IMG/VR virus record: IMGVR_UViG_3300032050_000353
Location: 1-38,276 of that record
Reading direction: 5' to 3' (one strand)
DNA length: 38,276 bases
From: a virus
Part shown: positions 3,079 to 35,167 of the stretch, piece after piece
How the letters are laid out: the number at the start of each line of letters is the position of its first letter
How positions within the stretch are numbered: the stretch's first letter is position 1
Position numbers and translations under genes: made by a program
Notes under the pieces: generated by a model
Database searches by the model: none
What the model was told of the DNA's origin: nothing
Seen by the model: the letters and a program-made list of their open reading frames with translations, nothing else

Positions 3079-3735
3079 ATGAAAATTCCAACATTACAGG
3101 AGCTAATCTCCGAAACGCCCGAAAGCTTAAAGCAAAACGCGCTTATGCTTCTGCTTAACCAAGACCCGCCTGCGAATTGGTTGCAGCAGCACCCTATGAT
3201 TAATAACTATAAATACCTACCTATCGAGCGCATAGAGTGGTTATTAACGCGCATTTTCGGTCGTTGGTGGGTAGAAGTGCGCGAGGTGCAAACAGTTGCT
3301 AACAGCGTAGTTGTAACGGTTCGCCTTTTCGTTATCAATCCATTGACAGGTGATACCGAGTTTCAGGATGGAATAGGAGCAGCACCAATCCAAACGGATA
3401 AGGGCGCAGGCGCAGCAGATTGGAACGCGGTAAAAACCGATGGCGTACAAAAAGCAGCACCAGCAGCAGAAAGTTACGCTATTTCAGACGCAGCCGATAA
3501 GTTCGGCAAGATTTTCGGGAAGGACGTAAACCGAAAACAGAAATTAGACTATAACGAGTTAGCTCTCGAAGGCAACAAGCCCGAACCGCAAAAAATAGTC
3601 TTAGACCAAAACTACAAAGGATGGGCTAAAGCATTAGAAGCGTCTAAGGATGGAACTATACCTGCAAAGGAACAAATGCTTCTAACTTATCACATTCCTG
3701 AATCGGCTCTTAAAATCCTATACCCTAATGCCTAA
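3079..3735 (+). CDS. Rad52/ERF-type single-strand annealing protein
   Basis: A 218-residue protein resembling phage Rad52-like recombinases. It has a conserved ERIEWLLTRIFGRWWVEVREV core, then DGIGAAPIQTD, and a lysine-rich YAISDAADKFGKIFGKDVNRK segment near residues 130-152 that matches the 'A-x-DA-x-KLGK-xFG-x-DLNRK' pattern of these proteins. Annealing proteins pair complementary single strands exposed by an exonuclease. The next gene, overlapping by 8 bp, is a YqaJ-type exonuclease, so the two should form a lambda Red-like pair. The family choice (Rad52 rather than ERF) is from motif resemblance only. Confidence 0.72.
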   Translation: MKIPTLQELISETPESLKQNALMLLLNQDPPANWLQQHPMINNYKYLPIERIEWLLTRIFGRWWVEVREVQTVANSVVVTVRLFVINPLTGDTEFQDGIGAAPIQTDKGAGAADWNAVKTDGVQKAAPAAESYAISDAADKFGKIFGKDVNRKQKLDYNELALEGNKPEPQKIVLDQNYKGWAKALEASKDGTIPAKEQMLLTYHIPESALKILYPNA

Positions 3736-4372
3736 GCACGGACACGTCACGCCCTCTAATTTTGCCAAAGTTATGACAATGGCACATTACAGGGCTATTC
3801 TTAAAAACCCTGACAAGCTGTACGAATTTTCAGCAACAGCAGAAAAGTACGCTATATCAGTCTGTCGGGGCTTCATAGGTGTAGAGGATAGAGAAATTAC
3901 AGCGCGCGCATTAGAACATGGTAGAACGTACGAACCAATGGCACGCGCACGGTACGAAAACGAGAATTTTATAGTAGTTCCCGAAATTACAGAACCGATT
4001 TATCACCCTCGTTTTAAATTCGTTTGTGGTATCCCAGATGGATTGGTAGGCTGTAACGGTTTAGTAGAAATTAAGTGTCCTGAGTCGCCAGATAATCACT
4101 TTTTGAACATTTCGGAAGGTTTGCAAATTGAAGACTATTATGCCCAAATGCAAGGCTATATGTGGATTACAGACCGAAAGTGGTGTGATTTTGTTTCTTT
4201 TCATCCTGCGTTTCCTGAAACACTCATGTTACACACGCAAAACGTTGATAGAGATGATAGTTACATAGAAATATTGGAAAAGAAGATAACAGCGTTTTTT
4301 GACCTTATTTTAGACAAAATGCGCACCGTATCACCCGAACACGCTACATATATGAAAAATACATATTTATAG
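3728..4372 (+). CDS. YqaJ/lambda-type 5'-3' exonuclease
   Basis: A 214-residue PD-(D/E)xK nuclease of the YqaJ viral recombinase family. The active-site string is visible as GIPDGLVGCNGLVEIKCP near 101-118, giving Asp104, Glu114 and Lys116, with an upstream ALEHGRTYEPMARARYE helix (61-77) that supplies the conserved Glu. YQMQGYMW-type downstream residues (AQMQGYMWIT) also fit. It should resect double-stranded ends to feed the annealing protein encoded immediately upstream. It ends the short rightward early operon and is followed by the non-coding origin-like region. Confidence 0.88.
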   Translation: MPKHGHVTPSNFAKVMTMAHYRAILKNPDKLYEFSATAEKYAISVCRGFIGVEDREITARALEHGRTYEPMARARYENENFIVVPEITEPIYHPRFKFVCGIPDGLVGCNGLVEIKCPESPDNHFLNISEGLQIEDYYAQMQGYMWITDRKWCDFVSFHPAFPETLMLHTQNVDRDDSYIEILEKKITAFFDLILDKMRTVSPEHATYMKNTYL

Positions 4373-4845
4373 CCAAATTCGATAACAACCTAATTACTAA
4401 GCAGTTAATTAAATTTAGCTGCTTATTTTTTATTTTAAAACATAACGCTTGCAATTACGACTTGTTACACGTAACAGCATTATAAATCAATAAGTTACAA
4501 AACCACTTTTCAAATTGTAACAGCTTGTAACAGTCTTTGTTACGCTGTAACGCCCACCACCATTGGTTTGTAACAATGTAACGCTTTTTTTGCAAAAATA
4601 CGCTTAATTAGAATAACATTATTATATTCTCTTATATAGATATATATTTATACTGTTACATTGTTACAATATAGTAGGATGTAGTAGTAGTGGGGGTTAC
4701 AGCGTAACAAAACTTTTTTATTTTTGTAACGGTTGTTACAGCCCACCATCACTACGTTTCAGTTTTAGAACTCAATAGGAATGCCTGTTACAAGCCCCTA
4801 TTTTTTACATTTACATTTTTCAGCAAAAAGAACTATCTTTGTATT
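4373..4845. promoter_or_regulatory. Iteron-rich non-coding region, candidate replication origin
   Basis: This is the longest non-coding stretch in the genome. Between 4464 and 4791 it holds 16 copies of GTTAC or its complement GTAAC, mostly in pairs 7-10 bp apart (4464/4471, 4517/4527, 4539/4547, 4570/4578, 4655/4663, 4696/4704, 4726/4735). About 0.6 would be expected by chance at even base use. The blocks at 4539-4582 and 4655-4708 form an interrupted inverted repeat sharing GTTACGCTGTAAC, a CCCAC block and TTGTAACAATGTAAC. Between them (4583-4654) is a very AT-rich core. Iterons flanking an AT-rich unwinding segment are the classic form of a replication origin. An operator array is the alternative. 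Confidence 0.65.
4834..4841 (+). promoter_or_regulatory. Late-class promoter of the packaging/tail operon
   Basis: TATCTTTG followed by TATT and then the ATG at 4846. There is no TTTG box 19 bp upstream (TTAC is found there). A -7 box only 4 nt from the start codon implies a leaderless or nearly leaderless transcript. Confidence 0.6.
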
Positions 4846-5334
4846 ATGGAAATCGAAATTGTCAAAATCCAGTCCGCAGGCGTTGTGCCTATCAAAACCG
4901 AAGTTGTGCTATTGTTTGGCGAACATAGCAGCGACCTGTTTCACATTGAAGGCATAGAGGAAACGACAGGGCTATCCCTAAGCGATGCACTCAGCTATCC
5001 CGAAACAGAAACGGACGGTTACATATACGGATTAGTGAACGTTACAAGCGAGGGCCCAATTTTCTTTTTCACAAATATAACCCGATTAGCCCACGAAATC
5101 GATTTAAATGGCATTTTAAGCGTGTTTAATTACTTAGGGCATGAGATACTTCACCTAACACGTTTAATTCAAGCACAGGCGATTTTAGGGGCTAATCTTA
5201 TCAATGGCGAATGGCCGACTATCGGAGGGGATATTACCGAAGCAGACACGGCGGAACTTATGAGCGCAATTTATGACGCAATTTGTCCCGTTTTTATAGA
5301 ATTTTTAGAAGCACATACCGAGTATGGCATATAA
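4846..5334 (+). CDS. Hypothetical protein with HExxH motif
   Basis: A 162-residue protein, first gene of the packaging/tail operon, overlapping the small terminase by 11 bp. It is acidic and has no signal peptide. Residues 99-103 read HEILH inside a predicted helix (GHEILHLTRLIQAQAIL), the zinc-binding arrangement of metallopeptidases, and a glutamate-rich helix at the C-terminus could supply a third ligand. The rest is not recognised. The motif is short enough to occur by chance, so peptidase activity is only a possibility. Position suggests a late function near packaging. Confidence 0.6.
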   Translation: MEIEIVKIQSAGVVPIKTEVVLLFGEHSSDLFHIEGIEETTGLSLSDALSYPETETDGYIYGLVNVTSEGPIFFFTNITRLAHEIDLNGILSVFNYLGHEILHLTRLIQAQAILGANLINGEWPTIGGDITEADTAELMSAIYDAICPVFIEFLEAHTEYGI

Positions 5335-5701
5335 CACAGATGAACTTGAAGCACTTGCAGTTAATGCAATCAAACAGCACAGTCTTACAACTATCGAGGA
5401 AGTTGTAAGCTTTTTACCGTGTTCAATGTCAACATTTTACCAACATAAATTGGAACAATCGGAAGCTATAAAAGAATCTATCTACAAAAATAGATGTTCG
5501 ATTAAAACAGAACTAAAAGGGAAGTGGAGGGAATCAGAAAACCCAACGCTGCAAATATCACTTTATAAGCTCATGGCAAGCGAAGAAGAACTGCGCAGGC
5601 TTTCAGTAGCAAAACAAGAAGTGAGCGGCAACGAGGGTCAAGACCTGAAATTTAATATTACCGTTTCAAACAACGCTCCCCCAATAACCGAAGAGGACTA
5701 A
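5324..5701 (+). CDS. terS: Terminase small subunit
   Basis: A 125-residue protein directly upstream of TerL, with its stop adjacent to the TerL ATG. The N-terminal half (TIEEVVSFLPCSMSTFYQHKLEQSEAIKESI) reads as a helix-turn-helix DNA-binding domain like those of phage small terminases. The middle (QISLYKLMASEEELRRLS) looks like the oligomerisation helices. Small terminases recognise the packaging site and regulate the large subunit. The identification depends on position and domain layout more than on strong sequence identity. Confidence 0.75.
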   Translation: MAYNTDELEALAVNAIKQHSLTTIEEVVSFLPCSMSTFYQHKLEQSEAIKESIYKNRCSIKTELKGKWRESENPTLQISLYKLMASEEELRRLSVAKQEVSGNEGQDLKFNITVSNNAPPITEED

Positions 5702-18581: not shown

Positions 18582-18853
18582 CAAAGCAACAACTAACTAA
18601 AAACCTTGCCACCGCTTTAGCTGAAACCCTACTCAGCAAAGCCCTTACTCCCGAAACGCTCGCAGACTTCTTGCTCAGTTCGGGTCTTGTTTCCGAAATG
18701 CGAGCGCGTCAATACTGCGCCGTTCGGGAATTTTACAGGCTCTATGCGTCACAAAAGAAGTGCGAGCTAATCGAAGAAATGTCGCAAAAATATGCGGTTT
18801 CGGCTCGGCTCATGAAGAGTTTGACGACTGAGCAGCGCAGGTTTAGTTTTTAA
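18578..18853 (+). CDS. Hypothetical helical protein
   Basis: A 91-residue all-helical protein. The segment EEMSQKYAVSARLMKSLTTEQ could form a helix-turn-helix, so DNA binding is possible but unproven. It is coupled to the upstream CxxC gene by an ATGA overlap, and its stop overlaps the convergent sigma factor gene by 4 bp. No terminator separates the two convergent genes. Confidence 0.6.
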   Translation: MTKQQLTKNLATALAETLLSKALTPETLADFLLSSGLVSEMRARQYCAVREFYRLYASQKKCELIEEMSQKYAVSARLMKSLTTEQRRFSF

Positions 18854-19671
18854 AGCTGTGCCACTCGTTGCATTGTGCTGCGCATCTTAATGAGCGACTT
18901 GTCAACAATCTGCTGAATGCGGCTGCGTGTGAGGTTCATATCTTTGGCTATATCGTTTAAGAATTGCGGTGTGTAGTACCCGATACCGAAATAGCGTTTA
19001 ATTATTTCGGCATCCCTTTCAGATAGCACACTAAGCCCTTTTTTTACGAGGGTTTTTGTGTATTCCTCGTTTCGCTCTGCGTCTATGTCGATATCGCCTT
19101 GCAGCTCGTAACATTCCTCACTTTCAGTTTCATCTATCGGGCGGTCAATCTCGAAGATGGTATAATTTGCGGCTACTGAATTGCGTAGCTCCGTTTCAGT
19201 TATGCCTAAACGCTCGCATAGTTCTTCGTCTGTTAGGTATTCGCCCTTGGTCTTCAGGGCTTTTATTTGTTGGTTATGCCGTTGCGGGTGCATAGGGCAA
19301 TATATAAGGTTGCCCTTATCCTGGATATACGCGCTTATTCGCTGTCTAATCCACCATACAGCAAATGAAATAAAACGCACACCCTTAGTCGGGTCAAAGC
19401 GTTGCGCCGCAAAGATAAGACCCTCGTTGCCTTCTTGAATCAAGTCCGAAAGCCTAACATTGTGATTGAGGTAAAACTTAGCGATAGAAACGGCAAAGTG
19501 CAGGTTACTTGTAACGAGTTTCTCGCGTGCTGCTTCGGGGTCGTTGTCGAAATCACGCAGCAGCTCGGCTTCTTCTGCGTGGCTCATGTGTTTCAATGGC
19601 CTAATGTCGTTCATGTATTTGCCGAGTTCGGCGTGGGGTGTGGTGCGTGATGTTACTTTGAATTGTCGCAT
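18850..19671 (-). CDS. Phage RpoD-like sigma-70 factor
   Basis: A 273-residue group-1/2-type sigma factor. It opens MRQFKVTSRTTPHAELGKYM, matching the start of Bacteroidetes RpoD. Region 1.2 is PLKHMSHAEEAELLRDF. Region 2 holds LVTSNLHFAVSIAKFYL, RLSDLIQEGNEGLIFAAQRFD and FISFAVWWIRQRISAYI (2.3-2.4). Region 3 is YLTDEELCERLGITETEL. Region 4 is LSERDAEIIKRYFGIG, with FLNDIAKDMNLTRSRIQQIV forming the -33-binding HTH. All regions are present, so it should redirect host core RNA polymerase, most likely to the late phage genes. It is the last gene of a three-gene minus-strand operon. Confidence 0.95.
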   Translation of the reverse strand: MRQFKVTSRTTPHAELGKYMNDIRPLKHMSHAEEAELLRDFDNDPEAAREKLVTSNLHFAVSIAKFYLNHNVRLSDLIQEGNEGLIFAAQRFDPTKGVRFISFAVWWIRQRISAYIQDKGNLIYCPMHPQRHNQQIKALKTKGEYLTDEELCERLGITETELRNSVAANYTIFEIDRPIDETESEECYELQGDIDIDAERNEEYTKTLVKKGLSVLSERDAEIIKRYFGIGYYTPQFLNDIAKDMNLTRSRIQQIVDKSLIKMRSTMQRVAQL

Positions 19672-32804: not shown

Positions 32805-34535
32805 TTATAAAAATATTTCATTTATCGGAATTGCAACACCTCTACCTGATACACCTGCACTATATCTTTTCACTCCTGACTTGATTGCGCCCTTCATCCT
32901 ACTAAGCACTATGTTATAACTCACAGCCCAAGCCGCGCCCGACTTTTGCAGCAATTCTTTTACGAACTTTGCACCGTTTAGGATAAACAGATATTCGATT
33001 CCATCTTGAACAGCAACCTGCAAGCCTAAACGCTTTAGTTTGTCGTTTGCCTCGTCTGATTTTATGCCGTTGGTTACGCAGGGTCTTGAGCTTGCAATTT
33101 CTACAAGTTCGCCAAGTGTACGTACCCCGATAAAATCGAGCGACTCTATACGCTGCTCACTACTCAAAATAAGCTGCAAGCATCTTTCTTCGTCCGTGCT
33201 ATCCTTTGCGCTCTCAGCTTGTCCGATAGCCTTTAAGATAGCCTCCGACTCTGCTAATGCCGTTTCGTAACTTACCTCTTCATCATTCAAAGTATGCCAC
33301 CATCCACCTAACAGCGTGCCGATTTGGTCGCCTGTGGATTTTACGCCTGTTATCGCAGTAATTGCACTTACAAACGTTTCTATACTGCGCATCATTACGG
33401 GCAAAATGCTAATCATTCGAGCTTGGAAACGACCTGCATAGTCGGGTGTAAGCATCTCAGCGCGTCCGCTTTCGATTTTGCGGAATGCTTCATTGTCTTT
33501 TAATTTCGCTATCTCTAAAACGCAAAAGCGACGTTTATCAGAGTCGAGGGCTATCTGTGGGTTTATTGAGCTGAGAAGAAAGCAAGATTTTACAGTATAT
33601 TCTTTTGCTTTTCCATCTTTCGAGCCTTTAGTCTGCGCTGCTCCATCCTTAGAACTTGCAGAACGGCATACGGACAAAACGCCCTGCATACGGTTTGCGC
33701 TGCGCTCGTCGTTGCCTTCTGCTTCATCAAATGTAACCGCAAACGCATCATTATTCAATCGCTGTACAATACCCATTTCGGTAGTGTTGCCTTGAAAGTT
33801 CACACCTAAGCTGCCTAACATCTTGTTGATGACGTTTTCAAGTAACCAAGACTTTCCGCTGTCTTTCGTACCAGTTAGCCAAATGTGAGGTCGCCAGTTC
33901 AACACACCGCAAACAGGCGCAATTGCTATCCACCCCGATAATAGGCGTGAGTCCGCAGCCGTGCCGAAATTCAAAAGCTGCAACATTTTTGTAAGGCGCG
34001 AGGATTCTTTGGATTCCATCGGGGTCTCGATGTGCATTTTGACAGGTGAGCGCATTTCATAGATAAACTCCGTATTAGTTCCGAGCGGCACACGTTGCCC
34101 TTCGATTATAAGCTGAGTACCTGCGTGAATAACAACGCGCCCCTTATCCATCCAAGCACCACGACCGCGTACCTTATCCACCGAAAAGAACCCGATTGCG
34201 TTGGATAAGCTGATAAGAAAATCAGCAGCAGCAAGCGCATCAAATGAACCACCTGCCGCGAAACGTTCCACCCAAAACTCTAAAGGTGCAAGCATCAAAA
34301 GGTTTTGCTTCGACATTTTAGCCGCTGCCAGTTTGATAATGCTTTTGCAGCTCGAAACATAAAAATAGTATTGTAGCACTCGTTCCTCTGAATCCCATCC
34401 AATCGGCATAAAATAGCCCTGAATGAATCCCGTTTTATCGCTCGCAGGTGTGGCTGAGGGCGCTTGCTTTGCGGTCGTTTTGCGTGTCTTTTTGGGCTGT
34501 TGCTCTTCGCTGTCCCAGTTGATAACTTTTTTCAT
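32805..34535 (-). CDS. Replication ATPase (AAA+/DUF927-like helicase)
   Basis: A 576-residue protein with a basic, disordered N-terminus. The ATPase core has GWIAIAPVCGVLNWRPHIWL leading to Walker A TGTKDSGKS (221-229), Walker B AVTFDEAEGND with Asp270-Glu271, and a sensor/arginine-finger region SSINPQIALDSDKRRF (323-338). This arrangement is found in phage primase-helicase C-terminal halves and DUF927-type ATPases. No primase catalytic motif is visible. The upstream gene, overlapping by ATGA, is a DnaB N-terminal domain, so the two likely act together as replicative helicase/loader. Exact family uncertain. Confidence 0.75.
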   Translation of the reverse strand: MKKVINWDSEEQQPKKTRKTTAKQAPSATPASDKTGFIQGYFMPIGWDSEERVLQYYFYVSSCKSIIKLAAAKMSKQNLLMLAPLEFWVERFAAGGSFDALAAADFLISLSNAIGFFSVDKVRGRGAWMDKGRVVIHAGTQLIIEGQRVPLGTNTEFIYEMRSPVKMHIETPMESKESSRLTKMLQLLNFGTAADSRLLSGWIAIAPVCGVLNWRPHIWLTGTKDSGKSWLLENVINKMLGSLGVNFQGNTTEMGIVQRLNNDAFAVTFDEAEGNDERSANRMQGVLSVCRSASSKDGAAQTKGSKDGKAKEYTVKSCFLLSSINPQIALDSDKRRFCVLEIAKLKDNEAFRKIESGRAEMLTPDYAGRFQARMISILPVMMRSIETFVSAITAITGVKSTGDQIGTLLGGWWHTLNDEEVSYETALAESEAILKAIGQAESAKDSTDEERCLQLILSSEQRIESLDFIGVRTLGELVEIASSRPCVTNGIKSDEANDKLKRLGLQVAVQDGIEYLFILNGAKFVKELLQKSGAAWAVSYNIVLSRMKGAIKSGVKRYSAGVSGRGVAIPINEIFL

Positions 34536-35167
34536 TGCTGCGCCGTTTTATGTCTTGCTAAATTCACAGGTTCAATGCCCTGTATTTGTTCCATAAGCTC
34601 AAAGCAGTCTACCGTATCGTCATAAGCTGCTTTGATTGTTTCCGTGCAACGCTGTATAATTTCACGCTGTAAGAATTTCTGTACTATTATTTTAGAGTGG
34701 TACGAAATATTAGCAGACGATGCAACGCGCTCGGTTAAAAAGCAGAGGTAATAAGCATCTTCGATACCTTTTTTCTTCTGCTCGGTAGCTACTGTAACGA
34801 GGTCAATTGGTATTCGCTGCGCTTGCATCTCGATAAGTAGCGCATAAAGCTCCACGTGCTTCTTATTGTAAAAGTGTTCGGGCTTTAGGAACTCCGAAAC
34901 CTGAGATAAGGCTGCGCTGTCGCATAGAATTGCGCCTAAGACAATCATTTCAAGGTCTTGCACCTGTGGCATAGGCTTGCCGAACATTTTAACCTCTTGC
35001 GGGTCTTGACTAACTATTACCATCAAGTCGTTAATAGTATCAATTTGTTCCTGTTTAAGATTTTTATAAGCTTCTTGTTTCTCTTTGGAAACGTATTCGC
35101 GCATTCGTTTTGCTTCTTGAATAAGCTGCGCCTGCAATAGCTCGGCGCGGTTTAGTAGTTCTTGCAT
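34532..35167 (-). CDS. Stand-alone DnaB N-terminal domain protein
   Basis: A 211-residue protein. After a coiled N-terminus, residues ~75-180 match the DnaB helicase N-terminal domain: DLEMIVLGAILCDSAALSQV, LKPEHFYNKKHVELYALLIEM, IDLVTVATEQKKKG, AYYLCFLTERVASSANISYHSKIIVQKFLQR. The protein stops there; the RecA-like ATPase domain of DnaB is missing. That domain mediates hexamer assembly and primase contact. The next gene supplies an unrelated ATPase, suggesting a split or replaced replicative helicase. Confidence 0.85.
   Translation of the reverse strand: MQELLNRAELLQAQLIQEAKRMREYVSKEKQEAYKNLKQEQIDTINDLMVIVSQDPQEVKMFGKPMPQVQDLEMIVLGAILCDSAALSQVSEFLKPEHFYNKKHVELYALLIEMQAQRIPIDLVTVATEQKKKGIEDAYYLCFLTERVASSANISYHSKIIVQKFLQREIIQRCTETIKAAYDDTVDCFELMEQIQGIEPVNLARHKTAQQ

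Follow-up and report, generated by a model that had tools for sequence, protein, structure and literature searches.

The window, i.e., the whole stretch of 38,276 nucleotides of viral DNA that was analysed, carries a dense array of GTTAC/GTAAC words that is very probably the start site of phage genome copying, and whose type, by analogy, is best read as an iteron-flanked AT-rich origin of the Sfi21/SaPI kind. We consider it highly probable that the array is a replication origin at which a 576-aa initiator-helicase of the Cch/SaPI-Rep/D5 kind binds the words, melts the core and loads itself. The observed basis of the origin reading is the array itself, the selective conservation of its words, the co-occurrence of such arrays with helicase genes across phages, the plan shared with the annotated Sfi21 origin and the fold predicted for the protein. 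From these we infer that copies of the 576-aa protein would attach to the GTAAC words by their C-terminal domain and gather to the left and right of the AT-rich core. They would then melt the core and self-load as helicase rings, and priming would start forks in both directions.

Organisation of the array

The two ends of the window share 127 bp, and therefore the genome measures 38,149 bp and looks like a complete circular phage map. The 328 bp of non-coding DNA at 4464–4791 hold eight GTTAC and eight GTAAC words (extended form (T)GTAAC(A)), and the sole listed open reading frame touching this region encodes 58 aa and starts at 4781; the remaining 38 kb of the genome contain 83 words, corresponding to 0.7 per 328 bp. 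An order-2 Markov model trained on the same intergenic stretch gave 1.6 words on average and never more than 7 in 3000 trials, and the same type of model trained on the genome gave a maximum of 6 across the entire 38-kb genome. When any 5-mer was counted, the best value in simulated genomes was 7–10, compared with the 16 observed. Spacings of 7–10 bp between words were also in excess (37 of 118, against a random mean of 12.5 and a random maximum of 23).

The words are arranged in inverted arms, which pair 4536–4560 with 4687–4711 (25 nt, 92%) and 4568–4582 with 4655–4669 (15 nt, 100%), so that an AT-rich core has short repeats to its left and right. The inner pairs GTAACaatGTAAC and GTTACattGTTAC, each 8 bp apart, face one another over this core of 72 bp (4583–4654), whose AT content of 82% falls in the top 0.5% among the 72-bp windows of the genome. 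Both the sixteen copies in non-coding DNA and the inverted arms described in the initial annotation are thus confirmed, the former by the count and by simulations that never exceeded 7, whereas the core, which had been called AT-only-like, proved to be AT-rich and not AT-only. The third related block is also present, with GCCCACCA at 4741, but this repeat is not conserved in the related phage L086, and for this reason the block is the weakest part of that description. The coordinates of the array and of the genes discussed below are reported in Table 1.

Table 1. Features of the window related to the putative origin (strand "." where none applies).
Feature	Position	Strand	Remarks
YqaJ-type exonuclease gene, ending before the array	3728..4372	+	PF09588
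Inverted repeat in a T-rich stretch behind the YqaJ gene, probable terminator	4391..4432	.	conserved in L086
Putative origin array	4464..4791	.	16 GTTAC/GTAAC words
Word starts, left of the core	4464, 4471, 4494, 4517, 4527, 4539, 4547, 4570, 4578		
Word starts, right of the core	4655, 4663, 4696, 4704, 4726, 4735, 4787		
Left inner arm	4536..4582	.	GTTACGCTGTAAC, CCCAC block, inner tandem pair GTAACaatGTAAC; identical in L086
AT-rich core, presumed melting region	4583..4654	.	
Right inner arm	4655..4711	.	inner tandem pair GTTACattGTTAC, GTGGGGG, GTTACAGCGTAAC; one word changed in L086
Outer right words and GCCCACCA repeat	4726..4791	.	repeat not conserved in L086
TATCTTTG, Bacteroidota-type −7 box before the 162-aa gene	4834..4841	+	present in L086 too
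162-aa gene after the array, no known family	4846..5334	+	conserved in L086
Probable small terminase gene	5324..5701	+	position before TerL; homologs in L003, L099, L128
576-aa initiator-helicase, proposed word binder	32805..34535	−	P-loop GTKDSGKS; predicted C-terminal alpha/beta domain; phrog_35358
Free-standing DnaB N-terminal-domain protein, possible primase adaptor	34532..35167	−	PF00772

At 4300–4900 no exact match to DnaA boxes (TTATNCACA) was found, which does not fit an origin of the DnaA/oriC type. The GC skew did not mark the array as an origin; its turning points, at 3225 and 31218, fall where the genes switch strand and, since they follow gene orientation, are uninformative on this question. 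DNA similarity searches with the array in phages and plasmids gave chance-level matches only, and the first pattern match, in L084, turned out to be a coincidence within coding sequence.

Conservation of the words in a related phage

L001 is the same phage (99.99% identical). L086, in contrast, is a true relative, about 86% identical over the array and the 162-aa gene. In L086 only 1 of 80 word bases differs from the window, compared with 55 of the 321 other bases (p = 4e-5), a result that answers positively the question of word conservation in relatives raised in the initial annotation. The small and large terminases of L086 are unrelated to those of the window, and the protection of the word bases despite this exchange therefore indicates selection on the words that does not act via the terminase. 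As for the rest of the region, the YqaJ protein of L086 is about 40% identical to that of the window across the regions that matched, and a different gene stands in place of the Rad52-like one. The unrelated terminase genes (L086:5845-7699) lie in an otherwise similar backbone, as in a packaging-module exchange, and the 162-aa protein was kept alongside the array while the terminases were exchanged.

The 576-aa candidate initiator-helicase

The 576-aa protein is related to phage primases (phrog_35358). Its structural model, obtained with 47 aligned sequences, reached a mean pLDDT of 85.7, compared with 33 for a single-sequence prediction. When searched with Foldseek against solved structures, the model gave as top matches SCCmec Cch, the primase-helicase of phage NrS-1 and vaccinia D5, with SaPI5 Rep also among the matches. 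The best structural match was Cch (5dgk; Z 14.4, residues 30–576), aligned at 8.9 Å, and the domain arrangement therefore differs from that of the 576-aa protein; MCM helicases scored equally high in the ATPase part. On the basis of the model, the replicon is predicted to encode an initiator-helicase of the Cch/SaPI-Rep/D5 class.

The gene sits 8.1 kb from the array round the circle, and this lack of adjacency is a point against the origin reading. The initial annotation, according to which no recognisable initiator is encoded next to the array, was literally right in this respect; a candidate initiator-helicase is nevertheless present at this distance, in an arrangement that is kept in close relatives. 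The adjacent gene for a free-standing DnaB-N protein has counterparts at 30 of 35 loci whose helicase is devoid of a long N-terminal extension (most of these 30 loci belonging to one clade) and at none of 45 loci with the extension. A possible role of the DnaB-N protein is to bring in the host primase, DnaG, in trans.

Comparison with known origins

In the Streptococcus thermophilus phage Sfi21, an origin that follows the primase gene has reportedly been characterised, and record NC_000872 annotates an origin at 34487–34784 (302-bp non-coding element). This element contains 11 GTTAC/GTAAC words. As in the window, tandem pairs of the same 5-bp word, 8 bp apart, flank an AT-rich core, with inner distances of 76 bp in Sfi21 and 77 bp in the window, and AT contents of 89 and 82%, respectively; the window thus has the words and the geometry of an annotated member, with inner pairs of opposite orientation, which point outwards in Sfi21 (<< >>) and inwards in the window (>> <<). 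A further difference is that the Sfi21 origin directly follows the Pox_D5/DUF5906 helicase gene, whereas the array of the window is distant from its helicase. The two helicases show very weak sequence similarity (hhalign probability 13%) and are linked by fold class only. The Sfi21 origin has been described as an independent origin, activated by infection (PMC6356513). The origin of unknown type proposed in the initial annotation is well supported as an origin, through word conservation, helicase co-occurrence and the Sfi21 match, but not as one of unknown type, given its Sfi21/SaPI plan.

In SaPIs the iterons flank an AT-rich region, and the alpha protein of bacteriophage P4 acts as a primase-helicase and, as proposed for the helicase of the window, also recognises words repeated within its origin; the P4 iteron is different, and P4 has a second site, crr. 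SaPI replication combines short iterons with a self-loading initiator-helicase, and the C-terminal domain of SaPI Rep recognises iterons just downstream of the rep gene (PMC7581432). The window shares with SaPIs the short iterons and an initiator-helicase that resembles SaPI5 Rep in fold, whereas host and iteron sequence differ; the array is set beside SaPI origins by description and is not a SaPI origin in the strict sense, in which the iterons lie directly downstream of the helicase gene. As for SCCmec, the isolated C-terminal domain of Cch2 binds a putative origin with 5-nt iterons (PMC7581432), and the words of the window are also 5 bp long, but they number sixteen compared with three at the Cch2 site. 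Moreover, DUF927, the domain of Cch, was neither reported as a match of the 576-aa protein nor present among the 25 families that its homologs matched most frequently.

GTTAC arrays beside helicase genes of other phages

Among contigs picked only by their helicase homologs, GTTAC arrays (at least 8 words in 330 bp) were found in 8 of 36 clusters, compared with none of 79 control contigs chosen by their terminase (p = 5e-5). The available flanking DNA of the other 28 clusters contained no array of this size, the causes being short flanks, a different word or real absence; a stricter geometric detector for any word, of low sensitivity, found arrays in just 6–8 of the 36. In phages whose helicases are 30–34% identical, GTTAC arrays are among the strongest non-coding word clusters. 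Acinetobacter phage Acjo_20 has one just upstream of the helicase gene, and others occur in Serratia phage MQ-4 and in Bordetella phage PY223, likewise chosen by helicase homolog. In a close group (helicases 46–48% identical) the array lies 5.4–9.3 kb upstream of the helicase gene, past a Rad52-like gene, an arrangement comparable to that of the window.

The reverse search disregarded genes and looked in viral contigs for tandem pairs of the single word GTTAC, in opposite orientation and 60–90 bp apart. At least 119 and at least 120 stretches were obtained for the two orientations (at least 239 in all), compared with 9 when one scrambled word with the same composition was used. Among the matches listed, 190 of 198 loci, counted without dereplication, had at least 7 words in 400 bp. 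An initiator-helicase gene of one of five families, with membership assigned by iterated profile searches and a Pfam check for some members, was present at 122 of these 190 strong arrays and at 2 of 79 controls, and many of the loci without an assignment lie near an end of the contig DNA. The 122 loci comprise D5-like (48), window-like (29), Toprim-AAA_25 (18), VirE-like (16) and DUF927/Cch-like (11) helicases; the array was on the 3′ side of the helicase gene in 114 of them, and abuts the gene in most families. The signature of tandem GTAAC pairs in opposite orientation around an AT-rich core of 60–90 bp thus locates probable origins in many uncultivated phages. In L180, L230, L249 and L318 the arrays lie within about 30 bp of Toprim-AAA_25 genes, a primase-helicase type not recognisably related to the helicase of the window, and in L356 a DUF927 protein with HTH_56 is encoded beside the array.

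Other helicase homologs follow the same plan with GCTGAC, GTTTAC, GTTAG or GTTGCA-type words, and L003:640-1000 follows it with CCTTAA. The latter word is also found at L128:1680-2050, where the gene order YqaJ–array–small terminase is that of the window and the small terminase is 57% identical; judging from these sequences, L128 is a natural word swap at the same place, and the change at a fixed place offers a natural experiment on the joint change of initiator and origin. The helicases of Synechococcus phage S-H1 (GTTAG) and L165 (GTTAC) are 81% identical in the ATPase part and about 52% in the C-terminal part, a divergence that fits word recognition by the C-terminal part, and other helicase pairs likewise vary most there. 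It is a tentative suggestion, which could well prove wrong, that pairs of GTTAC/GTAAC flanking an AT-rich core serve at least five phage helicase families, unrelated ones included, as a common origin code, acquired by origin-module exchange or by convergence, and that related phages switch to other words (CCTTAA, GCTGAC, GTTTAC or GTTAG), in at least one case without a change of genomic position. A literature search on GTTAC in phage origins, in which subscription papers were sparsely covered, found nothing, nor did the same literature yield a description of one word and geometry beside several helicase families. Thus, the breadth across at least five helicase families is the part that we did not find described, while the array itself very probably belongs to a known kind of origin.

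Alternative explanations

The array could also be an origin whose words are recognised by another protein (the 64-aa HTH protein, the DEAD helicase, the 162-aa protein or a host factor), which would then load the helicase. We regard this as rather unlikely; it stays a rival because one word is common to several helicase families, whose C-terminal parts, compared across the five, gave no clear similarity and no convincing alignment. The HTH, DEAD helicase and 162-aa genes are, in fact, conserved in L086. On the other hand, no HTH homolog was found in Acjo_20, MQ-4, Sfi21, L176 and L149, all with GTTAC arrays, and the HTH protein put forward in the initial annotation seems unneeded; homologs of the 162-aa gene were found in L001 and L086 only; and a single host factor is at odds with hosts that span several phyla and with a word that varies among phages. 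Together with the position of the array against the helicase gene in most families, these results make the initiator-helicase the probable reader of the words.

The remaining identities considered for the array, i.e., packaging site, operator and RNA gene, are unlikely. It lies just upstream of the terminase genes, a usual place of cos or pac, and might be a packaging site read by the small terminase; we give this hardly any credit, since L086 keeps the words with unrelated small and large terminases while L128 has a similar small terminase and the same gene order, yet another word. The two phages dissociate word and small terminase both ways, so that the latter does not determine the former, and in most other phages the array is beside the helicase gene. 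Only marginally less improbable is an operator region at which a repressor or activator would control the late operon, suggested by the promoter box TATCTTTG (4834), 43 bp beyond the last word: sixteen words, set in mirrored arms about an AT core, exceed the usual need of an operator, the arrays of other phages lie next to helicase genes, on the 3′ side, and not at a fixed promoter position, and the Sfi21 equivalent is annotated as an origin. Finally, Rfam searches gave no family at the gathering score and only sub-threshold miRNA matches across the palindrome, which makes a structured RNA gene unlikely.

Genes following the array

The 162-aa gene precedes the terminase genes, of which the small one was assigned by position because it had no Pfam or PHROG match. 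Only 4 bp separate the box TATCTTTG from the ATG that starts the 162-aa gene, which suggests a leaderless transcript or a later start. The phage also encodes a sigma-70-type factor, at 18850–19671.
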